A stretch of DNA of 64,000 nucleotides from Falsirhodobacter sp. 20TX0035 (GTDB lineage Bacteria; Pseudomonadota; Alphaproteobacteria; Rhodobacterales; Rhodobacteraceae), in contig NZ_JAQMHV010000003.1 of NCBI RefSeq assembly GCF_028307215.1, positions 124,001-188,000 on the forward strand, read 5' to 3'. The notes below the pieces were generated by a model, which was given only the letters and a program-made list of their open reading frames with translations, ran no database searches and was not told the DNA's origin. Each line of letters starts with the position of its first letter. The stretch's first letter is position 1. The translations under genes and the position numbers were made by a program. Shown here one piece after another: positions 20,242 through 48,915 of the stretch.

Positions 20242-22205
20242 GCCTCGTCCACCGGGATCAGGACGGAGCGGATGGCGAGTTCGCGCATCTGCTCCTCATA
20301 CCCCTCGGACATGCGCAGCCGGTCCAGCTTGGCGGCGTAGCGTTCGCGGATCATCGCCTCGGCCGCGGCCACGGCAGGATCGCGGCGCAGCGTGGCCATC
20401 AGGTCGGCCAGGCGGTCGGCATTGCGCGTGGCGCTCGTGTCCTCCACCTCGTTCCGGTCGAAGCGGCGGAAGTAGTCGATGTTGTACTTGCCGTGATTGT
20501 TCAGAACGTCGCCCCGCAGGCGGCGCATCAGGTATTCCTCGTGCGTCTTGACGCCGTAATGGTTCACCTGCGCGAAATCATAGCCCTTGCTTTGCCGCGT
20601 CTGGCGCCAGGTCATGATGTTGCCGTCGATGGGCTTGGCCGAGCCGTTGATCCAAGGGAGCCCGCGGGGGTTGGGCTTCTTCTTTTCCGCGCGGGGGCGG
20701 TGGATGGCGAGGCGCAGGTAATCTTCGTTCCGGAACAGGGTTTTCACGCCGTAGCCGGGGTTGAAGTCGTCATTCGCGGCACGGGTCAGGCGCTGCGTGA
20801 CGGGTTCGGGTCCGTAATGGGGGATGTGGGACGATCCAAAGAAGCGCCAGGTCACGGCCATGGCGTCCGTGTCCGTGTCGCGCATCAGGTCGATCAGGCT
20901 GTTGATGTCGCCGCCTTCGGTCTTGACCGTCAGGAATTCGTCGAAATCCATCACCATGATGTAGTCGGAATGCTGCACCAGCGGATGGCCCGTGGCGCGC
21001 TTCAGGGCGCGCGACTGGGGCGGCAGGTCTCGCATGGGGCCGTTTTCCATGCGGGTGACAAGGCCAAGGGCGGCCAGCGCGTCCAGCATCTCGTCCGTGC
21101 CGTCGGTGCAGTCGTTGGTGTAGGCGAGGATGTCGGTGAAGCCCAGAAGGTGGTGATAGGCCACCCATTCCAGCACGTAAGGGCCTTCGTCCTTGGCCAT
21201 CGTGACCAGCGTGACGCGGCCGTGACGTGATGCATTGGCGCCCGTGGGCAGGGCCGTCTTGCGGGCGTCCAGATCGCCGAGGAACTGTTCTGGGTCCAGC
21301 TTGACGGTGGCCTTGCGTTCGGCCTGTTCCTTTTCGTCCTTCGCCTCCCGCGGTTTCTTTTCGCGGGGCGCGGGGGGCGGAAGGCTGTCGTAATCGGCCA
21401 GATCGTGATCGATCAGATAGGTGCCCAGCCAGCTGGTCGCGGGCGGCAGGCCGCCGGGCATGCCGGCGGTGTATTTGCGCAACCAGCGGGAATAAAGGTG
21501 GACGGACAGGCTGCCTTCACGCTCCAGCTGCTCTTCCAGACGCTCCCGCTCCGGCGGTTTCACAAGGCGCTTGCGGTCGTTGAAGGCCACGGGGAAGAAG
21601 GTGTGGGTGGGCTGGGCCTTCGCGATCTCTCCGCTGTCCTGCGCGAACCAGGTCAGCGCCTCGGGCCCGGTGGAGCCCCAGGACAGGCTTTCCAGCCGCA
21701 CCGCGACGCCTTCGGACCGCTTCTGTTCCAGTTCCCGGCGGAACTTGCCCTTGGACCAGGGCGGGATCGGGAAGTCGGAGGTCAGGAAGTCCATCATCGC
21801 CTTCAGGGTCTGCGAATCCGCGGGCATCCCGAGGATGGCGTTGCCCAGCAGCAGGCGGTCCTCACGCTCGTGCCCGATGAACCAGCCGAGGTCGGCGGGG
21901 AAGGGTTGCAGGGCGATCACGTCGGTGTCGGCCCAGACGTTGCCTTCCTGCGCGACCATGCGCACGCGGAACACGTCCGCGTGGATCGCGGGGCTTTGGG
22001 CCTTGTCGTGCATCAGGATGCGGTCGGTGTCCCACACCTCGCGCGCGTTCACGACGTTGGTGCCCTCGGGCACGTTCGGAACATCCTCATAGGTGTAGAG
22101 GGTGTAGTCGTGGCCCAGCCGAAGGAAGGATTTGATCGACGCGATTTCCATCCATGACAAGGGGCCACCGATCCAAAGCGATCCGATCCGTGCGCGTACC
22201 GTCAT
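20238..22205 (-). CDS. two-domain glycosyltransferase (GT32-like DXD domain plus GT2/GT92-like domain)
   Basis: A 655-aa protein with two apparent sugar-transfer modules. The N-terminal part (about 1-280) resembles DXD sugar-transfer proteins, with WADTDV (DTD at 93-95) and HADVFR. A charged Pro/Lys/Glu linker spans about 288-320. The C-terminal part (about 330-600) resembles GT2/DUF23-type transferases, with TMAKDEGPYVLEWVAYH and MVMDFDEFL. No signal peptide or membrane segment is evident, so it is probably cytoplasmic and may act on surface polysaccharide. Donor and acceptor are unknown, and no other polysaccharide genes are nearby. Confidence 0.8.
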   Translation of the reverse strand: MTVRARIGSLWIGGPLSWMEIASIKSFLRLGHDYTLYTYEDVPNVPEGTNVVNAREVWDTDRILMHDKAQSPAIHADVFRVRMVAQEGNVWADTDVIALQPFPADLGWFIGHEREDRLLLGNAILGMPADSQTLKAMMDFLTSDFPIPPWSKGKFRRELEQKRSEGVAVRLESLSWGSTGPEALTWFAQDSGEIAKAQPTHTFFPVAFNDRKRLVKPPERERLEEQLEREGSLSVHLYSRWLRKYTAGMPGGLPPATSWLGTYLIDHDLADYDSLPPPAPREKKPREAKDEKEQAERKATVKLDPEQFLGDLDARKTALPTGANASRHGRVTLVTMAKDEGPYVLEWVAYHHLLGFTDILAYTNDCTDGTDEMLDALAALGLVTRMENGPMRDLPPQSRALKRATGHPLVQHSDYIMVMDFDEFLTVKTEGGDINSLIDLMRDTDTDAMAVTWRFFGSSHIPHYGPEPVTQRLTRAANDDFNPGYGVKTLFRNEDYLRLAIHRPRAEKKKPNPRGLPWINGSAKPIDGNIMTWRQTRQSKGYDFAQVNHYGVKTHEEYLMRRLRGDVLNNHGKYNIDYFRRFDRNEVEDTSATRNADRLADLMATLRRDPAVAAAEAMIRERYAAKLDRLRMSEGYEEQMRELAIRSVLIPVDEA

Positions 22206-29492: not shown

Positions 29493-29521
29493 AAAAAGGC
29501 GCCCCGCGGGGCGCCTTTTTT
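29493..29521. terminator. bidirectional intrinsic terminator between acpP and the phytochrome gene
   Basis: AAAAAGGCGCCCC directly followed by GCGGGGCGCCTTTTTT is an almost perfect palindrome with an A-tract on one side and a T-tract on the other. It can end acpP transcription on the plus strand and the convergent phytochrome transcript on the minus strand. Confidence 0.92.
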
Positions 29522-32034
29522 CATTTGCGGAAGGCGGTGGCCAGCGCTTCGATCAGGTTCTCGGCGTCGTAGGGTTTGCGCACGATGGGAACGTTGCGCA
29601 TCGTTTCGGGCAGGGCGGAGGTTTCGTCGTAGCCTGTGGCGAATACGAAGGGCGTACCGCGCGTGCGCAGCGCCTCGGCCACGGCGACGGAGGTTTCGGA
29701 GCCGAGGTTCACGTCCAGCATCGCCAGTTCGATCCCGCCGTTTTCCACGAGGTTCAGCGCCTGCGCCACGTTCCGCGCCAGCGAGATGCGCTTGAAGCCC
29801 GCCTCCTCCAGCATCGCTTCCACGTCCATGGCGATCAGCAGCTGGTCTTCCAGAAGCAGCACATGGGCGTCTTCGGGCACGGCGGGGGGGACCGCCCGAA
29901 GGGCGGTGGGGGTGGATGTCATGGCAGTCTCCTCAAACCGGACGAAACGGGCGGGAAGCACGAATTCGGCTTCCACCCCCGTGGGGCGATAATCAATAAA
30001 GGAACGGCCGCCCAGATCAAAGGGCAGGGAGCGTTCCAGAAGCAGCGAGCCGAAGCCGCTGCGGTCGGGCGCGACCACGGCGGGGCCGCCGCTTTCGCGC
30101 CATTGGACAAGGCAGTCGCCATCCTCGGACCGGGACCAGATCACCTCCAGCCGGCCGCCGGGGCGGGACAGGGCACCGTATTTGGCGGCGTTGGTCGCCA
30201 TCTCGTGCAGGATCTGGGCCATGACGGAGAAGCCGCGGCTGTCGAGCAGCGCTTCGGGCCCTTCGAGGCGCATGACCGAGCTGCCGCGATAGGGGGCGAG
30301 TTCGGCCTGAAGGAGCGCCGAGAAGGAGCCGCCGCCGTCGCCGCGCATCACCTGGTCATGGGCAAAGGACAGCGCCTGGATGCGCCCCTTGAGCGAGGCG
30401 ATGTAGGATTCGAGCGTGCGGCCTTCTTCCACCGGATGGCCGATGACGGACTTGATCACCGCGAGGATGTTCTTCACGCGGTGGTTCAGCTCGTCGTTGA
30501 GGACGCGCTGGCGCAGGGCGGCGCGGTCACGTTCCTCGGCCAGAAGCTCGTTGTGCAGAAGGACGATCTCCACCAGCGTGGTGCGCAGGGCGCGGGCGGT
30601 GTCGAGGTCATCCTCGGTCCAGGGGGCGGAGCGGCGGTGCACCTCCTCCTTCCACAGGGCGAAGCTGTGGCGGGGAGTCAGCCGGTCGCCCAAAGGGCCG
30701 GTTTCGTAGGTCTTTTCAGGGTTGCCGGCCCAGTTCACGGTGCGGACCTGTTCCTGGCGGAAGAACAGGATCCAGTCGCGCGCGATCTGGGATATGGGAA
30801 CGGCCAGCACGCCGGCGGTCCGGCCGTGGAACGGTTCCGCCTGCGGCACGTGGTCGGCAAGGTTGTCGGTGAACCAGAATCCGTCCTCGGTCTGGCCCGC
30901 GACGTGGGACAGGATCGCGTCCAGCGCCGCGGCGTCCGGGACGGTGCCGGTGGAGGTGCTGTGGTCGTTCATCTTCACCACGACACCGTCGCATTCCAGA
31001 AGGCGTGCCAGATCCTCGATCCCGTTGGCAAGGACGTGCTGCACGTCCTGCGAGGTGTCGAGCCGCGACAGCTTCTGCATCTGGGCGCGGGTGCGGGCCG
31101 CACGGTCCAGCTTGCGCTTGCGCAGAAGGGCGCCGAGGTGGAGGGACAGGAACTCTCCGAACATCTCGGCCGCGACGCGGACGGCCATGGGCAGGGTGTG
31201 CGGCGTGTAGTGGTGGCAGGCGATCAGGCCCCAGAGAACGCCGTCCACGATGATGGAGATCGACATGGAGGCGCCAACGCCCATGTTGCGCAGGTATTCG
31301 CAGTGGATGGGGGAGACGGACCGAAGGTGGGCCTGCGACAGGTCCAGGGGCTGGCCAAGGAAGCGTTCCGGCGTGATGGGCACGCGTTCGGCCTGGACGT
31401 CCGAGATGACGCGGATCGTGTTGGTGAGGTAGAGGCGCCGCGCCTGGGCCGGAATGTCGGCGGCCGGGAAGTGCTGGCCGAGGAAGGATTCAAGGTGGGG
31501 CGCCTTTTCTTCCGCGATGACGCGACCGGAGCCGTTGGCGGCAAATTCGTAGACCATGACGCGGTCATAGCCAAGATGGGCGCGAATCAGGCGTGTCACC
31601 TCGGCGAAAAGGGCATCGGCCTCTTCGAACCCGCTGATGCGGTCCATCATCAGGCGCGCCAGTTGCAGCGGCGCGGTGTTGGTGGAGGCCGCCTCCATCT
31701 CCACCATCGTGGCCATGCCGTTGCTGTGCAGGGCCATGTCGACGCGGCGGCCGGAGGGGAGTTGGACGTCGAAGAGCAGGACGGGGCGGGTCTGTTCGGC
31801 GGTGAGGGCCAGCGCGTCCTGCAGGCGGGCGGTGACGGCCGGGCCGAGGAGCTGGATGGGCGCCTCGCCGTTGCGGACGGCCTCGCGGCCGATCAGCTGG
31901 GCGCTGTTGGCCGAATGCTGCTGCAGCCGTTGCAGTTGGAGGTCGAAGGCCAGAAGCGCGCCGTAGGGCTGGATGGTGCCCGGGATGTGGATCGGCTCGC
32001 GGTCGCAATTGGTGAGGGTGACGGGCTCGTTCAT
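29521..32034 (-). CDS. bphP: bacteriophytochrome HWE histidine kinase with fused C-terminal receiver
   Basis: Red/far-red photoreceptor of 837 aa. Domains in order: PAS with the candidate biliverdin-attachment Cys10 in TNCDREPIHIPG; GAF with DIP (193-195) and chromophore-pocket His244; PHY with the tongue motif PRHSF (454-458); an HWE/HisKA_2 kinase with His518 in ELNHRVKN; an ATPase domain; and a receiver (about 722-837) with Asp774 and Lys820. Cytoplasmic, with no membrane segment. The ATG overlaps the stop of the heme oxygenase gene, whose product would supply biliverdin. No separate output gene is adjacent, so downstream targets are unknown. Confidence 0.93.
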   Translation of the reverse strand: MNEPVTLTNCDREPIHIPGTIQPYGALLAFDLQLQRLQQHSANSAQLIGREAVRNGEAPIQLLGPAVTARLQDALALTAEQTRPVLLFDVQLPSGRRVDMALHSNGMATMVEMEAASTNTAPLQLARLMMDRISGFEEADALFAEVTRLIRAHLGYDRVMVYEFAANGSGRVIAEEKAPHLESFLGQHFPAADIPAQARRLYLTNTIRVISDVQAERVPITPERFLGQPLDLSQAHLRSVSPIHCEYLRNMGVGASMSISIIVDGVLWGLIACHHYTPHTLPMAVRVAAEMFGEFLSLHLGALLRKRKLDRAARTRAQMQKLSRLDTSQDVQHVLANGIEDLARLLECDGVVVKMNDHSTSTGTVPDAAALDAILSHVAGQTEDGFWFTDNLADHVPQAEPFHGRTAGVLAVPISQIARDWILFFRQEQVRTVNWAGNPEKTYETGPLGDRLTPRHSFALWKEEVHRRSAPWTEDDLDTARALRTTLVEIVLLHNELLAEERDRAALRQRVLNDELNHRVKNILAVIKSVIGHPVEEGRTLESYIASLKGRIQALSFAHDQVMRGDGGGSFSALLQAELAPYRGSSVMRLEGPEALLDSRGFSVMAQILHEMATNAAKYGALSRPGGRLEVIWSRSEDGDCLVQWRESGGPAVVAPDRSGFGSLLLERSLPFDLGGRSFIDYRPTGVEAEFVLPARFVRFEETAMTSTPTALRAVPPAVPEDAHVLLLEDQLLIAMDVEAMLEEAGFKRISLARNVAQALNLVENGGIELAMLDVNLGSETSVAVAEALRTRGTPFVFATGYDETSALPETMRNVPIVRKPYDAENLIEALATAFRK

Positions 32035-32567
32035 GTCGGCTCCTTGGCGAACGCGTCGCGGGCGAGGTCGAACGTGAGTGTGGCCCCGACGACGGCCTGA
32101 TCGGCGTCAAAGGGTTCGGCCATGTCGAGGACGGACAGGAACGCGGTCCAGTTGGCCACGGTGCCGGACAGGTGCCGCGCGCCGAAGGTGGCGTCGAAGC
32201 CGAGGGTCTGGGCGCGCTTGCGCAGGATCTGGCTGCCGAGGGCGGCGCCTTCGAGGACGTAGAGGCGGCCGATCAGGGCGCTGCCGGACAAGGACGGGGC
32301 CGGCGTGGGATCGGGGAGCGGGAGGCCGAGGTCGGTCATGTCGCGGCGCAGGTCGTCCAGAAGCAGGCGGGGCCGCCAGGGGCTGAAGGCGACGCCCTTC
32401 AGAGCAGGCTCGACGGTGGCCCGGAACCGGAGGTTCGCGCGGAGGTAGGCGGCGTAGCTTTCGCGGTCGCCGAAGCCGCCCACGGCGGCGTCCAGCGCCG
32501 CGTGGGCTTCGGCCGTCGCGTCCCGCAACTGCCAGCGCCTGTTCGAAAGTCGTCCCGTCTGATCCAT
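32031..32567 (-). CDS. bphO: biliverdin-producing heme oxygenase
   Basis: Opens heme to biliverdin IX-alpha, the phytochrome chromophore. It is 178 aa, starting MDQTGRLSNRRWQLRD at 32567. The candidate proximal heme ligand is His22 in TAEAHAALD and the distal-helix glycine region is VLEGAALGSQIL (about 115-126). A 17-codon in-frame extension upstream has no similarity. The stop overlaps the phytochrome start by 4 bp (ATGA), so chromophore synthesis and apoprotein are translationally coupled. It is divergent from fabF. Confidence 0.92.
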   Translation of the reverse strand: MDQTGRLSNRRWQLRDATAEAHAALDAAVGGFGDRESYAAYLRANLRFRATVEPALKGVAFSPWRPRLLLDDLRRDMTDLGLPLPDPTPAPSLSGSALIGRLYVLEGAALGSQILRKRAQTLGFDATFGARHLSGTVANWTAFLSVLDMAEPFDADQAVVGATLTFDLARDAFAKEPT

Positions 32568-32588
32568 GGGGCGAACGTAGCGACCGGC

Positions 32589-32646
32589 TGCGCATGCGCA
32601 AGGCCTGTTTGCGCGCACTGGCGCGCCGGCGGATGTGGCTTATATT
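32589..32646. promoter_or_regulatory. bphO/fabF divergent region: 12-bp palindrome and candidate fabF promoter
   Basis: A perfect palindrome, TGCGCATGCGCA (32589-32600), lies between the divergent genes. For fabF, TATATT (32641-32646) is a good -10, with a weak -35 TGGCGC (32619-32624) 16 bp upstream. The palindrome is a possible operator. Confidence 0.4.
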
Positions 32647-32702: not shown

Positions 32703-33965
32703 ATGCGTCGCGTTGTCGTCACGGGTCTGGGTCTTGTCACGCCTCTTGCGTCGGGCGTGGAGGAAACGTGGAAGCGTTTGCTGGAAGGGCAGTCCGGAGC
32801 GGGCACGATCACCCGTTTCGATCCGGTGAACGTCGTCACGAAATATGCCTGCGAAGTGCCCCGCGGCGACGGGACAAACGGAACGTTCAACCCGGACGAC
32901 TGGATGGAGCCGAAGGACCAGCGCAAGGTCGACGACTTCATCATCTATGGCATGGCGGCGGCGGTTCAGGCCGTGAAGGATTCGGGCTGGGAGCCCGAGG
33001 ACGAGGAAGGTCGCGCGCGCACGGGCGTGATGATCGGGTCGGGGATCGGGGGTTTGAGCACGATCGCCGAGACGGCGGTGCTGATCAAGGAGAAGGGTGC
33101 GAAACGCGTGTCGCCGTTCTTCATTCCGGGCTCTCTCATCAACCTCGTGTCGGGGCAGGTGTCGATCCGGTTCGGCTTCAAGGGGCCGAACCATGCGGTG
33201 GTGACGGCCTGCTCGACCGGGGCGCATGCCATCGGCGATGCGGCGCGGCTGATCGCGTTCGACGATGCGGACGTGATGGTGGCGGGCGGGGCGGAAAGCC
33301 CGATCAGCGAGATCGGGATTGCGGGCTTCAACGCGTGCAAGGCGCTGTCGACCAAGCGTGCGGACGAGCCGACGAAGGCGAGCCGGCCCTATGATGCAGA
33401 CCGCGACGGGTTCGTCATGGGTGAAGGCGCCGGCATCGTGGTGCTGGAGGAATACGAGCACGCCAAGGCGCGCGGCGCGAAGATCTATGCCGAGGTGCTG
33501 GGCTATGGCATGTCGGGCGACGCCTATCACATCACGGCGCCGTCCGAGGATGGCGATGGCGGATACCGCGCGATGGAGGCGGCGCTGAAGCGTGCCGGGG
33601 TCGAGCCGTCGCAGGTCGATTACATCAACGCGCATGGCACCAGCACCATGGCCGACACGATCGAACTGGGCGCGGTGGAGCGGCTGTTGGGTGATCACGC
33701 GGCCGGGGCGACGATGAGCAGCACGAAATCGTCGATCGGGCACCTTCTGGGGGCGGCGGGATCCGTGGAGGCGATCTTCTGCGCACTGGCCATTCGCGAC
33801 CAGATCGCGCCGCCGACGATCAACCTGGACACCCCGGCGATGGAACCGAAGCTGGATCTGGCGCCGAACAAGGCGGTGAAGCGCAAGATCGACATCGCAC
33901 TGTCGAATTCGTTCGGGTTTGGCGGCACGAATGCGAGCCTGGTTCTGGGGCGGGTGCGCGACTGA
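32703..33965 (+). CDS. fabF: 3-oxoacyl-ACP synthase II
   Basis: Condensing enzyme of fatty acid elongation, 420 aa. The Cys-His-His catalytic triad is visible: Cys170 in TACSTGAHA, then INAHGTSTM and SSIGHLLGAAGS. The ATG at 32703 has AAGGAAG at good spacing; the much longer in-frame extension runs antisense through bphO and is rejected. Its stop shares a base with the mltG ATG (TGATG). fabD, fabG and acpP lie about 3 kb upstream, beyond the bphOP insertion. Confidence 0.97.
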   Translation: MRRVVVTGLGLVTPLASGVEETWKRLLEGQSGAGTITRFDPVNVVTKYACEVPRGDGTNGTFNPDDWMEPKDQRKVDDFIIYGMAAAVQAVKDSGWEPEDEEGRARTGVMIGSGIGGLSTIAETAVLIKEKGAKRVSPFFIPGSLINLVSGQVSIRFGFKGPNHAVVTACSTGAHAIGDAARLIAFDDADVMVAGGAESPISEIGIAGFNACKALSTKRADEPTKASRPYDADRDGFVMGEGAGIVVLEEYEHAKARGAKIYAEVLGYGMSGDAYHITAPSEDGDGGYRAMEAALKRAGVEPSQVDYINAHGTSTMADTIELGAVERLLGDHAAGATMSSTKSSIGHLLGAAGSVEAIFCALAIRDQIAPPTINLDTPAMEPKLDLAPNKAVKRKIDIALSNSFGFGGTNASLVLGRVRD

Positions 33966-35143
33966 TGTGGAAATCTGTCGCCTCCAACGCGCTGACGCTG
34001 TTCATCGTCATTCTGGTTTTTGTGGCGGGGTTGGTTGCGTGGGGGCGGCAGACGTTCTTTGAGCCGGGGCCGCTGACGCAGGCGATCTGCCTGCGGGTGG
34101 ACAAGGGGGCCTCCACCTCTGACGTGGCGGAGGCGCTGGCGGCGCAGGGGGCGATCGAGAACACCTATGTGTTCCGGATTGGCGCGGACTACACCGAAAA
34201 GTCGGGGCGCGAGAAGTTCGGGAGCTTCCTGATCCCGGCCAGTGCGTCGATGCCGCAGATCCTGGACATCGTGACCGCGGGCGGGCAATCGACCTGCGGG
34301 CGCGAGATCAACTATCAGATCGGCGTGGCGAACGCGCAGATGGTGTTGCGCGACCTGAACCCGGCCACGGGCCGGTTCGAGGAAGTGGCGAAATACGATC
34401 CCGCCGCGGGCGAGGCGCCGGAGGCGTTTGCGGGCGTCGAGGGAGAGGATCTGCGCCTGCGCGTGACGCTGGCGGAAGGCGTGACCAGCTGGCGGGTGGT
34501 GGACAGCTTGAAGCGGGCGGATTTCCTGACGGGCGATGTGGACAAGGTGCCGGCGGAAGGCAGCCTTGCGCCCGACAGCTACGAGGTCGTGGAGGGTCAG
34601 TCGCGGAGCGAGTTGCTGGCGGAGATGGCCGAACGGCAGACCCGCATCTTGGCCGATCTGTGGGTCGGGCGCGACGAGGGGCTGCCCTATGAGACGCCGG
34701 AGGAGGCGCTGGTCATGGCCTCTATCGTGGAGAAGGAGACGGGGATCGCGGGCGAGCGGCCGATGGTGGCCAGCGTCTTCGTGAACCGGCTGCGCGACGG
34801 GATGCGGCTTCAGACCGACCCGACCGTGATATATGGCGTGACGAAGGGCGAGGGCGTGCTGGGACGCGGGTTGCGGGCCAGCGAATTGCGCGCGCGCAAT
34901 CCCTACAACACCTATGTCATCGACGGGCTGCCGCCGACGCCCATCGCCAATCCGGGGCGGCTGAGCATCGAGGCGACGCTGCATCCGGCGGATTCAGAGT
35001 ATGTGTATTTCGTGGCGGACGGGACCGGCGGGCACGTGTTCGCCCGCACCTTAGACGAGCACAACGCCAACGTGGTCAAGTGGCGCGAGATCGAGCGGGA
35101 GCGCGGGCAGGCGCCGGCGGGCGGCGTGCAAACCGGAGAATAA
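33965..35143 (+). CDS. mltG: endolytic murein transglycosylase MltG
   Basis: Inner-membrane lytic transglycosylase proposed to end nascent glycan strands. It is 392 aa, with one N-terminal membrane helix (about 8-27), a LysM-like region, and the YceG catalytic domain with MASIVEKETG (catalytic Glu256), SVFVNRL, LQTDPTVIYG and YNTYVIDGLPPTPIANPG. It is coupled to fabF by a TGATG overlap, in the common fabF-mltG pair. The GTA leader begins just after it. Confidence 0.95.
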   Translation: MWKSVASNALTLFIVILVFVAGLVAWGRQTFFEPGPLTQAICLRVDKGASTSDVAEALAAQGAIENTYVFRIGADYTEKSGREKFGSFLIPASASMPQILDIVTAGGQSTCGREINYQIGVANAQMVLRDLNPATGRFEEVAKYDPAAGEAPEAFAGVEGEDLRLRVTLAEGVTSWRVVDSLKRADFLTGDVDKVPAEGSLAPDSYEVVEGQSRSELLAEMAERQTRILADLWVGRDEGLPYETPEEALVMASIVEKETGIAGERPMVASVFVNRLRDGMRLQTDPTVIYGVTKGEGVLGRGLRASELRARNPYNTYVIDGLPPTPIANPGRLSIEATLHPADSEYVYFVADGTGGHVFARTLDEHNANVVKWREIERERGQAPAGGVQTGE

Positions 35144-35162
35144 ACGGGCGGTAAACGCCCCG

Positions 35163-35200
35163 CGCGCGCAAGTATCTGAAATAACTTGACTTTGCGCGCG
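35163..35200. repeat. 9-bp inverted repeat bracketing the GTA -35 element
   Basis: CGCGCGCAA (35163-35171) and TTGCGCGCG (35192-35200) are perfect inverted copies separated by 20 bp that include the -35 hexamer. It is a candidate operator for the GTA operon activator or repressor; the protein that binds is unknown. Confidence 0.5.
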
Positions 35201-35214
35201 GCCTGAGGTATCAC
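35186..35214 (+). promoter_or_regulatory. candidate promoter of the gene transfer agent cluster
   Basis: TTGACT (35186-35191), 17-bp spacer, TATCAC (35209-35214). A start about 7 nt after the -10 would fall at or next to the ATG of a four-codon ORF (35222-35236). This is the only good promoter seen between mltG and the first GTA gene. In R. capsulatus GTA transcription depends on the regulator GafA; its binding site cannot be identified here from sequence alone. Confidence 0.55.
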
Positions 35215-35221
35215 TACAGGC

Positions 35222-35236
35222 ATGCTGGAAGACTGA
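35222..35236 (+). other. four-codon ORF in the GTA leader
   Basis: ATG-CTG-GAA-GAC-TGA. If transcription starts from the promoter just upstream, the ATG would be almost at the 5' end (leaderless). It is placed 4 nt before a terminator-like hairpin. It may be chance; its position makes it a candidate for translation-linked control. Confidence 0.25.
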
Positions 35237-35240
35237 ACGA

Positions 35241-35273
35241 ACGGCCTCGGGGGTGACCCGCGGGCCGTTTTTT
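35241..35273 (+). terminator. terminator-like hairpin inside the GTA leader
   Basis: ACGGCC (35241-35246) pairs with GGCCGT (35263-35268), with an inner CGGG/CCCG stem, followed by TTTTTT (35268-35273). It lies downstream of the candidate GTA promoter and upstream of the first GTA gene, so it would stop most transcription unless read through. It could instead end the fabF-mltG transcript. Confidence 0.7.
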
Positions 35274-35311
35274 CGTTGGCTCGTGCGGGCAGCATGAGAG
35301 GCGGGACGGGC

Positions 35312-35629
35312 ATGAACATGGATCTCTCCATCGGAGAAGCTTCGCGAGTGGATCTGCTTGCGGAGACTGAGAGGCTGTATCGCGAGGTTGCCGAGGAGCT
35401 GGCCGTGGCCACGCGCCGAGTCAGCGAGGGCGACATGGGAGAAGTGGCGGGAGCGATGCGGGCAATGAAGGATCTGCGCGCCGCGTTCCAGATGGTGATG
35501 GAAGAAAGGACACGGGTTGAGAAACTTCGCAAGCAGGCCGGCGGCGTCGTCAACGAATACGCCCTCGACCTTGACGCCGCACGCGATGAGATCGGGCGCC
35601 GGCTGGCTCGCCTCCGCGGCGCAGGATGA
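35312..35629 (+). CDS. GTA g1-like protein, candidate terminase small subunit
   Basis: A 105-aa, mostly helical, charged protein in the position of RcGTA orfg1, which acts as the small terminase. It has an extended Glu/Arg-rich coiled-coil-like middle (about 15-80) and ends about 44 bp inside the large-terminase gene. The ATG at 35312 was chosen, with GAGAGG about 10 nt upstream; ATGs at 35294 and 35318 are in frame and possible. Assignment rests on position and general character rather than a strong motif. Confidence 0.7.
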   Translation: MNMDLSIGEASRVDLLAETERLYREVAEELAVATRRVSEGDMGEVAGAMRAMKDLRAAFQMVMEERTRVEKLRKQAGGVVNEYALDLDAARDEIGRRLARLRGAG

Positions 35630-36929
35630 GGTGGATGCCTTTCTGGAAGGTCTGGGGGACAATGCGCTGATGGCGTTGCCGTGGCTGTTCGAGTTCTGGG
35701 CGCTGGCGCATCAGCTGCCGCCCGATGGCGCGTGGAAGAGCTGGGTGATCATGGGGGGGCGCGGGGCGGGGAAGACCCGCGCCGGGTCCGAATGGGTGCG
35801 GGCGGAGGTGGAAGGGGCGCGGCCGCTGGATCCGGGCCGGTCGCATCGCGTGGCGCTGGTAGGGGAGACGATCGACCAGGTGCGCGAGGTGATGGTGTTC
35901 GGGGAAAGCGGGATCCTTGCCTGCTGCCCGCCCGACCGGCGGCCCGTGTGGGAGGCGGGGCGGCGGCGGCTTGTCTGGCCGAACGGGGCGGTGGCTCAGG
36001 TGTTTTCGGCGCATGAGCCGGAGAGTTTGCGCGGGCCGCAGTTCGATGCGGCCTGGGTGGACGAGCTGGCGAAGTGGAAGAAGGCGGAGGAGACCTGGGA
36101 CATGCTGCAATTTGCGCTGCGGCTGGGGGATCATCCGCGGCAGGTGATCACGACGACGCCGCGCAACGTGGGCGTGCTGAAGACGATCCTGAAGAACCCG
36201 TCGACCGTGGTGACCCATGCGCCGACCGAGGCGAACCGCGCTTATCTGGCGGCAAGCTTTCTGGAGGAGGTGCGGGCGCGTTACGAGGGCACGCGGTTGG
36301 GCCGGCAGGAGCTGGACGGGGTGTTGCTGGAGGATGTGGAGGGGGCCTTGTGGACGACACCGGCGCTGGAGGCGGGCCGGCTGGACCGGGCGCCGAAGCT
36401 GGACCGGATCGTGGTGGCGGTAGATCCGCCCGTGACGGGGCATGCGGGGTCGGATGAGTGCGGGATCGTCGTTGTTGGCGCGGTGACGGAGGGGCCGCCG
36501 CAGAACTGGCGCGCGGTGGTGCTGGAGGATGCCAGCGTGACGGCGGCGAGCCCGGACGCCTGGGCGCGGGCGGCTTTGGCGGCGATGGAGCGGCACGGGG
36601 CGGACCGGCTGGTGGCGGAGGTGAACCAGGGCGGCGATCTGGTGGAAACCGTGATTCGGCAGATCGATCCGCTGGTGCCGTTCCGCGCGGTGCGCGCGAC
36701 CAAGGGCAAGGTGGCGCGGGCGGAGCCGATCGCCGCGCTGTATGAGCAGGGGCGGGTAAAGCACCTGCGGGGCCTTGCGCGGCTGGAGGACCAGATGTGC
36801 CGCATGACGGTGCGCGGCTATGACGGGAAGGGGTCGCCCGACCGGGTGGATGCGCTTGTCTGGGCGGTGTGGGAGCTGATGGTGGAGCCTTCCTCGGTGT
36901 ATCGCCGCCCGCAGATCCGGGGGCTGTAG
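35586..36929 (+). CDS. GTA terminase large subunit (g2)
   Basis: ATP-driven motor and nuclease that packages random host DNA into the particle. The 447-aa product has Walker A MGGRGAGKT (about 56-64), Walker B AAWVDE (about 155-160) with the TTTPRN coupling motif, and an RNase H-like nuclease domain with the acidic residues in AVDPPVTGHAGSDECG, AEVNQGGD and DRVDALVW. The start at 35586 overlaps g1 by 44 bp and gives an N-terminus (GWLASAAQDEVDAFL) like that of GTA relatives; the frame stays open further upstream. Confidence 0.93.
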   Translation: MRSGAGWLASAAQDEVDAFLEGLGDNALMALPWLFEFWALAHQLPPDGAWKSWVIMGGRGAGKTRAGSEWVRAEVEGARPLDPGRSHRVALVGETIDQVREVMVFGESGILACCPPDRRPVWEAGRRRLVWPNGAVAQVFSAHEPESLRGPQFDAAWVDELAKWKKAEETWDMLQFALRLGDHPRQVITTTPRNVGVLKTILKNPSTVVTHAPTEANRAYLAASFLEEVRARYEGTRLGRQELDGVLLEDVEGALWTTPALEAGRLDRAPKLDRIVVAVDPPVTGHAGSDECGIVVVGAVTEGPPQNWRAVVLEDASVTAASPDAWARAALAAMERHGADRLVAEVNQGGDLVETVIRQIDPLVPFRAVRATKGKVARAEPIAALYEQGRVKHLRGLARLEDQMCRMTVRGYDGKGSPDRVDALVWAVWELMVEPSSVYRRPQIRGL

Positions 36930-37076: not shown

Positions 37077-38243
37077 ATGTTCGATTTCCTGAAGCGGGGC
37101 GCGGCGCAGGTGCCGGAGGCGAAGGCCTCGGCCACCGGGCCCGTGATCTCGTATCAGAGTTCGGGGCGCGTGGCGTGGAGCCCGCGCGACACGGTGAGCC
37201 TGACGAAGACCGGGTTCCAGGCGAACCCGATCGCGTTCCGGGCGGTGAAGCTGATCTCGGAGGCGGCGGCGGCGTTGCCGATGGTATTGCAGGATGCGGA
37301 GCGCCGGTATGACCTGCATCCGGTTCTGGACCTGATGCGCCGTCCGAATGCGGCGATGGGACGGGCCGAGTGGTTCGAGGCGCTGTACGCGCAGCTTCTG
37401 CTGTCCGGCAACGCCTATCTGGAGGCGGTGCCGGGGGCGCTGCTGCCGGGCGAGCTGCACGTTCTGCGGTCGGACCGCATGAGCTTGGTGCCGGGGCCGG
37501 ACGGGTGGCCGGTGGCCTATGACTATACCGTGGCGGGGCGGAGCCTGCGGTTTGACATGACGGGGGGCTTCCAGCCGATCTGCCACATCAAGAGCTTCCA
37601 CCCCCAGGACGATCATTACGGGTTGTCGCCGATGCAGGCGGCGGCGGTGGCGCTGGATGTCCACAACTCGGCCTCGCGCTGGTCGAAGGCGTTGCTGGAC
37701 AATGCGGCGCGGCCGTCGGGGGCGATCATCTACAAGGGCGTGGACGGGCAGGGCGCGCTGTCGACGGACCAGTACGACCGGCTGGTGACCGAGATCGAGA
37801 TGAACCATCAGGGCGCGCGCAATGCCGGGCGGCCGATGCTTCTGGAAGGCGGGCTTGATTGGAAGCCGATGGGGTTCAGCCCGTCGGACATGGAGTTCCA
37901 CGAGACGAAGCTGGCGGCGGCGCGCGAGATCGCCATCGCATTTGGCGTGCCGCCCATGATCCTGGGCATCCCGGGGGATGCGACCTATGCCAATTATCAG
38001 GAGGCGAACCGTGCATTCTATCGGCTGACGGTTCTGCCCTTGGCGGCAAAGGTGGCGGCGGCGGTGTCGCACTGGCTGTCGTCGTTTTCGGGCGAGGAGG
38101 TCGAGTTGCGGCCGGATCTGGACCAGGTGCCGGCCTTGGCCGCGGAGCGTGATCAGCAATGGGCGCGTGTGGGCGAGGCCGACTTTCTGACCGTGGCCGA
38201 GAAGCGGATGCTTCTGGGGCTTCCGAGGGTTCCGGAGGAATGA
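37077..38243 (+). CDS. GTA portal protein (g3)
   Basis: HK97-type portal that forms the head vertex for DNA passage. It is 388 aa, with the family core ANPIAFRAVKLISEA near the N-terminus, GNAYLE, the HIKSFHPQDDHYGLSP segment and the GVPPMILGIPGDATYANYQEA stretch near the C-terminus. The start at 37077 (MFDFLKRG) has GGAGG 5 nt upstream, better than the ATG at 37065. The stop overlaps g3.5 as ATGA. Confidence 0.94.
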   Translation: MFDFLKRGAAQVPEAKASATGPVISYQSSGRVAWSPRDTVSLTKTGFQANPIAFRAVKLISEAAAALPMVLQDAERRYDLHPVLDLMRRPNAAMGRAEWFEALYAQLLLSGNAYLEAVPGALLPGELHVLRSDRMSLVPGPDGWPVAYDYTVAGRSLRFDMTGGFQPICHIKSFHPQDDHYGLSPMQAAAVALDVHNSASRWSKALLDNAARPSGAIIYKGVDGQGALSTDQYDRLVTEIEMNHQGARNAGRPMLLEGGLDWKPMGFSPSDMEFHETKLAAAREIAIAFGVPPMILGIPGDATYANYQEANRAFYRLTVLPLAAKVAAAVSHWLSSFSGEEVELRPDLDQVPALAAERDQQWARVGEADFLTVAEKRMLLGLPRVPEE

Positions 38244-45072: not shown

Positions 45073-48000
45073 ATGGCCACCCTTCTGCTTGCATCGGCCG
45101 GTGCCGCCATTGGCGGCAGCTTCGGCGGTGCCGTCTTGGGCCTGTCCGGCGCCGTCATCGGGCGGGCGGTCGGGGCCACCTTGGGCCAGGTGATCGACCA
45201 GCGCATCTTCGGCAGCGGATCCTCGGTCGTGGAGGCGGGAAAGCTGGACCGCTACCGCATCATGGGCGCCAGCGAGGGCGCCGCCATCCCGCAGCTTTAC
45301 GGCCGGACACGCTTGGCGGGGCAGGTCATCTGGGCCACTCGTTTCAAGGAGCACAAGAAGAGCAGCTCGGCCGGGGGCAAGGGCGCGAAGCAGCAGAAGG
45401 TGACGCAGTACTCGTACTCGGTCAGCCTGGCGATCGCGCTGTGCGAGGGGGAGATTTCGACCGTGGGCCGCATCTGGGCCGATGGGGTGGAGATCGTGCC
45501 GGCGGACCTGACGATGCGCGTCTATACCGGATCGGCGGACCAGCTGCCCGATGCCAAGATCGAGGCGGTGGAGGGGCAGGGCATGGCCCCGGCCTATCGC
45601 GGCATCGCCTATGTGGTGATCGAGGATCTGATGCTGTCAGCCTATGGCAATCGTGTGCCGCAGTTCAGCTTCGAGGTGCTGCGCGCCTCGGACGGGCTGA
45701 CGTTGCAGAACGCGGTGAAGGCGGTCGCGTTGATCCCGGGGACGGGGGAGTATTCGCTGGCGACCACGCATGTGCGCCAGAACCACGGTCTGGGCGCGTA
45801 TGAGGCGGTGAACGTCAACACGCCCTCGGGTCGGTCGGACTTGGAAACCTCGCTGGATCAGCTGGGGGCGGAGCTGCCGCAGGCGGGGTCGGTGTCGCTG
45901 GTGGTGTCGTGGTTCGGGTCCGACCTGCGCTGCGGCGCGTGCGAGATCGCGCCGAAGGTGGAACAGACGCGGATCGACGCCGAGAACATGAAGTGGAAGG
46001 TTGCGGGGCTGACGCGGTCGCGTGCCCGCACGGTGCCGACCGAGGCAGGGCGGCCCGTCTATGGCGGCACGCCGACGGACGAGTCCGTGATCGAGGCGAT
46101 CCGCGCCACCCGGGCCAGCGGGCGCGAGGTGATGTTCTATCCCTTCATCCTGATGGAGCAGGTGGCGGGCAATACGCTGCCCGATCCTTGGAGCGGGGGA
46201 ACGGGGCAGGCCGTGCTGCCCTGGCGGGGGCGGATCACGACCTCGCTGGCCCCGGGTCAGGCAGGGTCACCCGATCGGACGGCCGCGGCGGAAGCCGAGG
46301 TCGAGGCGTTCTTCGGGGCGGCGGAAGCCAAGGATTTTGACGGCACATCGTATTCGGGCCCCAACGAGTGGCGCTATCGCCGGTTCATCCTGCATTACGC
46401 GCATCTTTGCGCGAAGGCGGGCGGCGTGGACGCGTTCTGCATTGGGTCCGAGATGCGGTCCCTGACCCAAGTTCGTGGCGCGGATGACAGCTTCCCTGCG
46501 GTGGAGCAACTGCGTCGGCTGGCGGACGAGGTTCGCGCCATTCTGCCCGACGCCAAGATCAGCTATGCTGCGGACTGGAGCGAGTATTTCGGCTATCACG
46601 CGGATGGCAACGTGTACTTCCACCTCGACCCGCTTTGGGCCGACCCGGCGATCGATTTCGTGGGGATCGACAACTACATGCCGCTGTCGGACTGGCGCGA
46701 TGGTCAGGATCATGCCGATGCGCGCTGGGGGTCGACCTACAACCTCGACTACCTCAAGGCCAACATCGCCGGGGGGGAGGGGTATGATTGGTATTACGAC
46801 AGCCCCGAAGGGTTGGCGGCCCAAAGGCGCACGCCCATCACGGATGGTGCCTTCGATGAGCCGTGGGTGTTCCGCAACAAGGACATCCGCAACTGGTGGT
46901 CGCAGGAGCATCATGAGCGTCGTGATGGGGTACGGTCGGCTGTGCCCACGGCGTGGAAGCCGCAGTCGAAGCCGATCCGCTTCACGGAATACGGCTGTGC
47001 CGCCATCGACCGCGGCACGAACGAGCCGAACAAGTTCCTGGATCCCAAATCCTCGGAGTCCGTCCTGCCGCGGGCGTCGGACGGACGTCGGGACGACCTG
47101 ATCCAGATGCAGTATCTGCGCGCCATGGCCGAATTCTGGGGAGAGGTGGAGAACAACCCTTTGTCGATGCTTTACGGCAAGCCGATGGTGGACATGGATC
47201 ACGCGCATGTCTGGGCCTGGGACGCGCGACCGTTCCCGGCCTTCCCGAACCTTGTCGATCTGTGGTCGGACGGGGACAACTATCCGCGCGGGCACTGGCT
47301 GAACGGGCGTGCCGCGTCCCAGCCGCTGGCGCAGGTGGTGAAGGAGATCTGCGCGCGTTCCGGCGTGGAGGCGGACACGTCGGAGCTGTACGGCATCACG
47401 CGCGGCTATGCGGTGGAGCAGATTGGCCATGCCCGCGCCGCCCTTCAGCCGCTGATGCTGACCCACGGGTTCGAGGCGATGGAGCGGGACGGGCGCCTTG
47501 TCTTCCGCATGCGGGACGGGATCAGCCGGCGGACGCTGGACGCGGACCGTCTGGCGGTGAGCGCGGAACTAGAGGGCGCGCTGGAAACCGCCCGCGCCAC
47601 CGAGGCGGAGATGGCGGGCCATGTCCGTGTGGCCTTCACCGAGGCCGAGGGCGATTACGGCAGCCGTCATGCCGAGGCGATCTTCCCGGATGAACGCACG
47701 GTGTCCGTGTCGCAAACCGACCTGCCCATGGTGCTGACTGCGGCCGAAGGGCGCGGCGTGGCCGAACGCTGGCTGGCCGAGGCGCGGGTGGCCCGTGACA
47801 CGGCGCGGTTCGCGCTGCCCCATTCGGTGGATGTGGGGGCGGGTGATGTCGTCACGCTGAACGACGCGCTGTGGCGGATCGACCGTCTGGATAAGGGCGA
47901 CGTCCAGCTGGTCGAGGCGACGCGGGTGGAGCCGCATGTCTATGCCCCCTCCGACATGGTGGAGGAGCGGATCGTTCCGCAGGCCTTCGTGGCCCCGGTG

Positions 48001-48915
48001 CCGACCTTCCCGCTGTTCCTGGACCTGCCCTTGCTGCGCGGGGACGAGGTGGAGCATGCGCCCCACGTCGCCGTCACCGCCACCCCATGGCCGGGCCGCG
48101 TCGCGATCTGGAGCGCGGCACAGGATGCGGGCTACACCCTCAACACCCAGGTGGAGGACGCGGCCGTGATCGGCGTGACCGAGGGCGCACTGGGTGCGGC
48201 GCGATCGGACCTGTGGGACCGGTCGGAGCCGCTGCGCGTGAAGGTCTTTGGCGGCGCGCTGACCTCCGCCTCGGAGCTGGAGGTTCTGAACGGGGCGAAC
48301 GCCATGGCCATCGGCGACGGCCAGACATGGGAGGTGTTCCAGTTCGTCAAGGCGACGCTGGTGGACAAGGGGACCTATGACCTGAGCCTGCGCCTGCGGG
48401 GCCAGGCTGGGACGGACGGTGTCATCCCGCCCGAAGGCTGGCCGGCGGGCAGCTATGTCGTGCTGCTGGACGAGGCGCTGGCGCAGGTGGCGATGCCCAC
48501 CTCCTCGCGCAACCTAGCGCGGCACTACCGCGTCGTTCCGGCGGTGCGCGGGTATGACGACCCCACGGCGGTGCACGAGGTGCGGGCCTTCGGGGGAGTG
48601 GGGCTGCGCCCCTACGCCCCCTGCCATCTGCGTGTGACCGGCACGGGAGATGTGAAGGCGACGTGGGTGCGGCGCACGCGGATCGACGGGGACAGTTGGG
48701 AGTCCTACGAAGTGCCGCTGGGCGAAGCGGCGGAAACCTACATGATCCGCGTCATCGCCAACGACCAGATCGTGCGGGAGGTGATCGTCTCGTCGCCGGA
48801 ATGGACCTACACCGCCGTGATGCGCAGCGCGGATGGGGTGGGGACCGGGACGTTGGCGGTGGCGCAGGTGTCGGACCGGTTTGGGCCGGGGCCCTTCACC
48901 ACCGTCCCGATCTAG
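45073..48915 (+). CDS. GTA tail-tip/host-specificity protein (g15, megatron)
   Basis: 1280-aa baseplate protein, the largest in the window. A Gly/Ala-rich hydrophobic N-terminus (about 1-45) is followed by the phage tail domain (GRTRLAGQVIWATRF, about 80), a GTA TIM-barrel-like domain (about 430-720, with GIDNYMPLSDWRDG and WFRN-type blocks) and a Phage-tail_3-like region (about 790-960). The C-terminal part of about 250 residues probably contacts recipients. It is the last gene of the cluster, followed by a 228-bp gap. Confidence 0.92.
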   Translation: MATLLLASAGAAIGGSFGGAVLGLSGAVIGRAVGATLGQVIDQRIFGSGSSVVEAGKLDRYRIMGASEGAAIPQLYGRTRLAGQVIWATRFKEHKKSSSAGGKGAKQQKVTQYSYSVSLAIALCEGEISTVGRIWADGVEIVPADLTMRVYTGSADQLPDAKIEAVEGQGMAPAYRGIAYVVIEDLMLSAYGNRVPQFSFEVLRASDGLTLQNAVKAVALIPGTGEYSLATTHVRQNHGLGAYEAVNVNTPSGRSDLETSLDQLGAELPQAGSVSLVVSWFGSDLRCGACEIAPKVEQTRIDAENMKWKVAGLTRSRARTVPTEAGRPVYGGTPTDESVIEAIRATRASGREVMFYPFILMEQVAGNTLPDPWSGGTGQAVLPWRGRITTSLAPGQAGSPDRTAAAEAEVEAFFGAAEAKDFDGTSYSGPNEWRYRRFILHYAHLCAKAGGVDAFCIGSEMRSLTQVRGADDSFPAVEQLRRLADEVRAILPDAKISYAADWSEYFGYHADGNVYFHLDPLWADPAIDFVGIDNYMPLSDWRDGQDHADARWGSTYNLDYLKANIAGGEGYDWYYDSPEGLAAQRRTPITDGAFDEPWVFRNKDIRNWWSQEHHERRDGVRSAVPTAWKPQSKPIRFTEYGCAAIDRGTNEPNKFLDPKSSESVLPRASDGRRDDLIQMQYLRAMAEFWGEVENNPLSMLYGKPMVDMDHAHVWAWDARPFPAFPNLVDLWSDGDNYPRGHWLNGRAASQPLAQVVKEICARSGVEADTSELYGITRGYAVEQIGHARAALQPLMLTHGFEAMERDGRLVFRMRDGISRRTLDADRLAVSAELEGALETARATEAEMAGHVRVAFTEAEGDYGSRHAEAIFPDERTVSVSQTDLPMVLTAAEGRGVAERWLAEARVARDTARFALPHSVDVGAGDVVTLNDALWRIDRLDKGDVQLVEATRVEPHVYAPSDMVEERIVPQAFVAPVPTFPLFLDLPLLRGDEVEHAPHVAVTATPWPGRVAIWSAAQDAGYTLNTQVEDAAVIGVTEGALGAARSDLWDRSEPLRVKVFGGALTSASELEVLNGANAMAIGDGQTWEVFQFVKATLVDKGTYDLSLRLRGQAGTDGVIPPEGWPAGSYVVLLDEALAQVAMPTSSRNLARHYRVVPAVRGYDDPTAVHEVRAFGGVGLRPYAPCHLRVTGTGDVKATWVRRTRIDGDSWESYEVPLGEAAETYMIRVIANDQIVREVIVSSPEWTYTAVMRSADGVGTGTLAVAQVSDRFGPGPFTTVPI

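Follow-up and report, generated by a model that had tools for sequence, protein, structure and literature searches.

A conserved predicted terminator between promoter and first gene of Rhodobacteraceae GTA clusters points to a probable GafA-dependent read-through switch

The DNA analysed here is a stretch of 64,000 nucleotides from Falsirhodobacter sp. 20TX0035, which we call the window and to which all coordinates refer. It carries an RcGTA-type cluster with Pfam and NCBIfam matches to a large terminase, to the GTA megatron and to portal and capsid proteins of HK97 type. The megatron protein (45073..48915, plus strand; NCBIfam NF048004 GTA_megatron, 1842 bits) marks the cluster as RcGTA-type, and the large terminase is encoded by g2 (35517..36929, plus strand; Terminase_6N and Terminase_6C). 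Ahead of g2 lies g1 (35312..35629, plus strand), a small terminase candidate by its position and a by-eye alignment with R. capsulatus g1; it has zero Pfam or NCBIfam matches and two possible ATG starts, at 35312 or 35318. The gene upstream of g1 is mltG of the YceG family (33965..35143, plus strand; Pfam PF02618, E 1.5e-75). A few genes upstream of the cluster, on the minus strand, 29521-32034 encodes what we take from its sequence to be a phytochrome-like sensor kinase carrying a receiver domain at its C terminus, and beside it 32031-32618 presumably encodes a possible heme oxygenase. The gap between mltG and g1 is 168 nt long, and mltG ends 42 bp ahead of the -35 element. The initial annotation had described a promoter, a 9-bp dyad, a micro-ORF and a terminator-like hairpin in this gap, and all four are present.

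The promoter consists of a -35 element TTGACT (35186..35191) and a -10 element TATCAC (35209..35214) on the plus strand, separated by a 17-nt spacer, and both elements are conserved in the related loci described below. The spacer itself contains a conserved element with the consensus CGnnCGGTC (35195..35203, plus strand; here CGCGCGGCC). Across the relatives, the mean over the first 12 spacer positions is 1.02 bits, compared with 0.11 for 60 nt well upstream of the promoter and 0.04 for random columns. The block of promoter and adjoining elements matches once in the window and in 0 of 100 shuffles; a scan with stock settings reported neither the GTA promoter nor the hairpin. The exact 9-bp inverted repeat CGCGCGCAA / TTGCGCGCG has its arms at 35163-35171 and 35192-35200, so that the right, inner arm falls inside the -35/-10 spacer and overlaps the conserved spacer element. 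Among relatives, the sequence around its outer arm is close to random, and the repeat is a weak signal, as 26/1000 shuffles of the 168-nt gap and 22/380 window tiles also have one. The proposal that this dyad flanks the promoter as a unit is therefore not borne out.

Between the promoter and g1, a GC-rich hairpin (35239-35270) and a T run (35268-35273) on the plus strand form a predicted promoter-proximal intrinsic terminator (35239..35273). The segment 35238-35273 folds with -22.5 kcal/mol, and among the 18 plus-strand hits that a strict scan gave in the window, the hairpin has the lowest energy (-21.9 vs -21.8 for the next, at 21470). For the wider 70-nt stretch the fold beats shuffles by a modest margin only (z -1.89). 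Within the genes of the cluster the same scan predicts two weak terminators, at 38082 and 44316. Downstream of the U-run, the second stem-loop CTCGTGC-GGGCA-GCATGAG (35280..35298, plus strand) is conserved in many GTA leaders; from this promoter it is reached only after passage of the terminator.

For a comparison of this gap across relatives, we searched 160 genomes of the family and found TerL in 142. The upstream stretch was taken for 110 of these; 32 TerL genomes were left out for contig ends and for partial or weaker matches, and five more loci brought the set to 115. One locus (L001) was left out as a copy of another (L002), and a further search gave nine loci, six of which were dropped as chance matches. 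A position weight matrix was seeded from 26 exact matches, and loci scoring above 12 were taken to carry the module. By this measure the module block is found in 83/115 GTA loci, a score that is partly circular because some of these 115 loci had served to train the matrix; the top score on reversed sequences was 3.9. The safer test is a set of 40 out-of-sample loci, the first 40 among the matches listed with no more than one mismatch in genomes not used before. At up to three mismatches, the block occurs in 210/394 family genomes, usually once per genome, compared with 12/394 for the reversed control (table count).

The block has the consensus cTTGACtttgCGnaCGGTCt..aGTAta..Tt.tg.CAwGCTRGAAGAagTGGGc, followed by the GC hairpin and U-run, and the spacing between TTGAC and GCT is 37 nt for 27 loci and 38 nt for 55. 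TTGAC, CGnnCGGTC and the -10 element are conserved jointly with the initially transcribed sequence AWGCTRGAAGAAGTGGGC and with a hairpin that covaries and whose U-run starts between +38 and +53. A 47-bp signature from this comparison marks GTA clusters. By eye, the same module is found in Paracoccus denitrificans and P. versutus. In P. denitrificans HAMBI_2443 (L272, 1040-1340) and P. versutus DSM 17099 (L273, 1040-1340) the replicon that carries it was deposited as a plasmid; these plasmids are 1.7 and 2.2 Mb in size, and the plasmid table lists no genes in that stretch. In a sample at the level of the class, TerL was matched in 50/192 genomes, three of these being the Falsirhodobacter genome itself or members of its family, and from the remaining 47 we fetched 20. 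Only one of these 20 loci from other alphaproteobacterial families passes the module score (L212, 25.3) and 19 fail; the hairpin of L212 is weak (-14.3) and lies about 75 nt from its start. No phage record was similar to the R. capsulatus stretch used as query.

A terminator, defined as a hairpin with dG <= -16 and a T-run no more than 75 nt from the start, is present in 78/83 module loci vs 10/415 dinucleotide shuffles. With a laxer energy cut of -10 it is found in 79/83 loci, but 80/415 shuffles pass too. The out-of-sample genomes gave a terminator in 38/40 loci vs 12/400 shuffles, with TerL following in 38/40, and a viral collection gave a terminator in 74/77 loci, with TerL 200-500 nt downstream in 76/77. 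Loci lacking the module have a terminator in only 10/32 cases despite the longer stretch scanned, and module and terminator are associated (Fisher p 1.3e-11). The position of the hairpin is also constrained. In module loci the U-run begins between +39 and +53 with a mode of +46, and 45/79 fall at +46 to +48; in the out-of-sample loci the range is +38 to +50. The median hairpin energy over 79 loci is -22.8 kcal/mol. Absence of the hairpin from close relatives had been named at the outset as grounds for dropping the idea, and these counts show the opposite. The comparison separates the four parts: promoter and hairpin are kept as one block, and micro-ORF and outer dyad arm are not conserved.

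We also looked at covariation in the hairpin stem. Over eight pairs, 53 cells with changes on both sides were counted vs 21.4 in shuffles, and 0/500 shuffles scored as high, in an alignment (A1) of 71/79 hairpin loci with imperfectly aligned inner stem columns and with relatedness that may inflate the counts. Left out of A1 were L115, a near copy of L114, and the divergent loci L038, L053, L098, L042, L068, L109 and L095; leaving out these eight was our choice and favours the covariation count. By another measure, the number of pairs changed on both sides, seven were found, which 9/500 shuffles matched. Stem cells are paired in 90.9% of cases in the true register, and a partner shifted by three columns still pairs in 80.4%.

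The strict motif of the second stem-loop occurs in 38/83 module loci vs 0/830 shuffles and in 22/40 out-of-sample loci. Seven loci (L089, L091, L093, L100, L102, L105 and L108) are without the terminator and have in common a stretch like TACAGGCAAGAAAGGTGTCGAGC ahead of g1; of the initial element, L093, L100, L102 and L105 keep a GCTGG remnant. These seven possibly represent a lineage that has lost the arrangement or uses a different one.

Could the hairpin simply end the mltG transcript, with the GTA promoter elsewhere or g1 reached by passive read-through? In the window, mltG does stop 42 bp before the -35 element, and the strict scan finds no further plus-strand terminator in the gap. Among relatives, however, the distance of the hairpin is constant to the promoter and not to mltG. 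In 17/83 module loci mltG was undetected in the ~1.2 kb fetched upstream, and the hairpin is kept in 15/17 at the laxer cut; in 17 module loci the end of mltG is more than 100 bp from the -35 element, and at the same cut the hairpin is kept in 16/17. In R. capsulatus and R. viridis, and by our own reading in six further module loci, another terminator of its own stands upstream of the promoter. A sigma70-like site downstream of the hairpin is present in just 2/83 module loci, and the published R. capsulatus start site is placed within a probe upstream of the hairpin (PMC6363796). With the hairpin mostly persisting where mltG is undetected, distant or separately terminated, we regard the mltG terminator that the initial annotation had allowed for as very unlikely. 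The predicted terminator sits at a conserved position between promoter and g1, so read-through would be needed for g1 to be transcribed from this promoter, as initially suggested.

The initially transcribed element (35222..35239, plus strand; consensus AWGCTRGAAGAAGTGGGC) begins at about the predicted +1, is conserved at the nucleotide level, and in its first part is unpaired in predicted folds. It contains the micro-ORF ATG-CTG-GAA-GAC-TGA (35222-35236, plus strand; ATGCTGGAAGACTGA), which had raised the idea of attenuation through a leader peptide or a coupled ribosome. The frame exists in the window; across relatives, however, the start position reads ATG in 42/82 loci, AAG in 31 and something else in 9, and among the 42 ATG loci the frame is no longer than eight codons in 6. 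Because the micro-ORF is not conserved, leader-peptide attenuation is unsupported, and we consider it extremely improbable. The region 35000-35450 has no Rfam match to a riboswitch or described leader at E <= 1.

A second way to read the same element is as the 5′ seed of a regulatory small RNA of ~50 nt that ends at its own terminator, with g1 served by low-level read-through. The conservation of the initial element, its unpaired first part and the terminator immediately after it would suit such an RNA. Against it, the module is usually single per genome and tied to GTA loci, TerL following in 38/40 and 76/77 cases, and Rfam is without a match; in R. capsulatus the initial element also lies inside the DNA interval bound by GafA. 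We therefore judge a small RNA to be improbable.

The published work on R. capsulatus allows the module to be set beside a known regulator. R. capsulatus g1 is reported as 107 aa long and beginning ATGGACATGGGG (PMC6854486), and the ORF from the R. capsulatus g1 ATG in our data is likewise 107 aa. One locus, L275, carries three primer sequences of R. capsulatus SB1003 exactly. In SP108, DSM 1710 and L275 the interval 76-125 bp before g1 spans the end of the -35 element, the spacer element, the -10 element, the start and the initial element. Of five probes tried in R. capsulatus, this interval was the only one to bind GafA, and the GTA start site was placed in this bound probe (PMC6363796); binding of GafA-C to it is also described (PMC9638019). 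CGnnCGGTC, conserved between -35 and -10, therefore falls within the interval published as GafA-binding. The L275 hairpin (-17.8 kcal/mol, with 0/200 shuffles as good) begins at the last base of the GafA-binding interval.

Falsirhodobacter sp. 20TX0035 encodes a GafA of 338 aa with an HTH and a DUF6456 match (E 1.9e-57). It shares 51% identity with its R. capsulatus counterpart, and its gene is on the contig that holds g1, ~121 kb ahead of it. GafA is found in 147/160 family genomes, including some with a GTA locus that lacks the module. Among 50,697 phage records, the sole match to GafA at E <= 1e-3 is MW462191.1 76124-76537, which covers the GafA C-domain alone at 41% identity. In Caulobacter, GafZ is described as homologous to the GafA C-domain and, from reporter evidence, as needed to pass terminators, its element being a palindrome between -10 and -35; the same source suggests that GafA may have an unrecognized anti-termination activity (PMC11150451). 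The genome thus encodes a homologue of an antiterminator, by the GafZ relation as published there, together with the layout of an antitermination system, namely a conserved element between -35 and -10 and a predicted terminator between promoter and genes. We propose CGnnCGGTC as a candidate loading element for the GafA C-domain.

A loading element, a conserved first transcript and a terminator are what anti-termination by GafA would need, and we therefore propose a lambda-Q-like late-gene switch, in which GafA carries polymerase through the leader terminator, as the likely reading of this locus. Without help in getting past the stop, RNA polymerase could probably not read the cluster, and the helper is most likely GafA. 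Transcription would start at about 35221-35222, and unaided polymerase would mostly stop ~50 nt on, at 35239-35273, leaving g1 and the whole cluster silent unless it is read through. GafA would dock via its C-terminal DUF6456 domain at CGnnCGGTC between -35 and -10 and perhaps also contact the initially transcribed element, a sequence that may make polymerase pause early. Loading of GafA onto polymerase would then confer resistance to the leader terminator. What we observed is the promoter-like block, the predicted terminator, the spacing, the hairpin covariation and the gafA gene; from these we infer the stopping at the hairpin, the loading of GafA, the pausing and the read-through. The earlier suggestion of processive antitermination by a GTA activator gains support as probable, on the basis of the conserved terminator after the promoter.

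Several points count against such a switch. In 32/115 loci the score is below the module cut, and GafA is present in some of these genomes (for example G032, with locus L082). The GafA N-domain bound specifically to probes flanking the 76-125 bp interval (PMC9638019), which the switch model leaves unexplained. GafA is described as an activator working by omega-mediated recruitment of polymerase (PMC9638019), and activation of this kind would by itself need no terminator. A rival view is that GafA activates initiation only and that the terminator is a leaky brake on background transcription, which frequent initiation would overcome. In its favour are the binding of GafA to the promoter and its interaction with omega (PMC9638019), and the general fact that terminators are not fully efficient. 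A strong hairpin before a late operon (median -22.8 kcal/mol) is more easily understood with anti-termination. That the homologue GafZ permits read-through (PMC11150451) is a further argument against initiation alone, which we hold to be unlikely. Beyond this locus, we lean towards the broader view that GTAs of the Rhodobacteraceae, including RcGTA, are controlled at elongation as well as at initiation, with GafA as a one-protein activator and anti-terminator that would be loaded at the spacer element and the initially transcribed element and release polymerase past a terminator at about +50.

If the switch operates as proposed, the sole product in cells lacking GafA would be an abortive RNA of ~50 nt. 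This would form a tight filter that helps confine the lethal GTA programme to few cells, and would help explain the silence of a lethal cluster in most cells. In many genera of the family a predicted terminator keeps a fixed place next to the GafA site known from the literature, and anti-termination by GafA thereby becomes directly testable. Anti-termination by GafA is already in print as a suggestion (PMC11150451). A literature search at the level of titles and abstracts found no paper on a leader terminator of Rhodobacterales GTA.

The RcGTA promoter of Rhodobacter capsulatus has the same module in the same place before g1, and in the main text of the RcGTA papers 'terminator' occurs 0 times in PMC6363796 and 'terminat' 0 times in PMC9638019. 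For BaGTA of Bartonella, integration of GTA expression by antitermination is stated in a title (Korotaev et al. 2025, cited in PMC13236601). The likeness to lambda Q and to P. aeruginosa AlpA is one of layout only, and we claim no sequence kinship of GafA to either. In lambda the terminator is much farther from the start than in the GTA leader. The shared layout consists of a promoter-located element for the factor and a terminator before the late genes (PMC11150451 and, in part, general background). A parallel in components is the GafYZ/CcGTA system of Caulobacter crescentus, with a homologous regulator, an element between -35 and -10 and a terminator in the GTA cluster to be bypassed; the Caulobacter ZBE and CGnnCGGTC share their location between -10 and -35 (PMC11150451). 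The CcGTA terminator, built of 150-bp repeats, follows the first gene, and that system has its start codon at +251 as well as an IHF site (PMC11150451); the place of its terminator after rather than before the first gene counts against the switch reading. Unlike CcGTA, the Rhodobacteraceae leaders have a single covarying hairpin, which comes to its end near +50, ahead of the first gene and beside a conserved initial element, and unlike the separate GafY and GafZ of Caulobacter, GafA is one fused protein.
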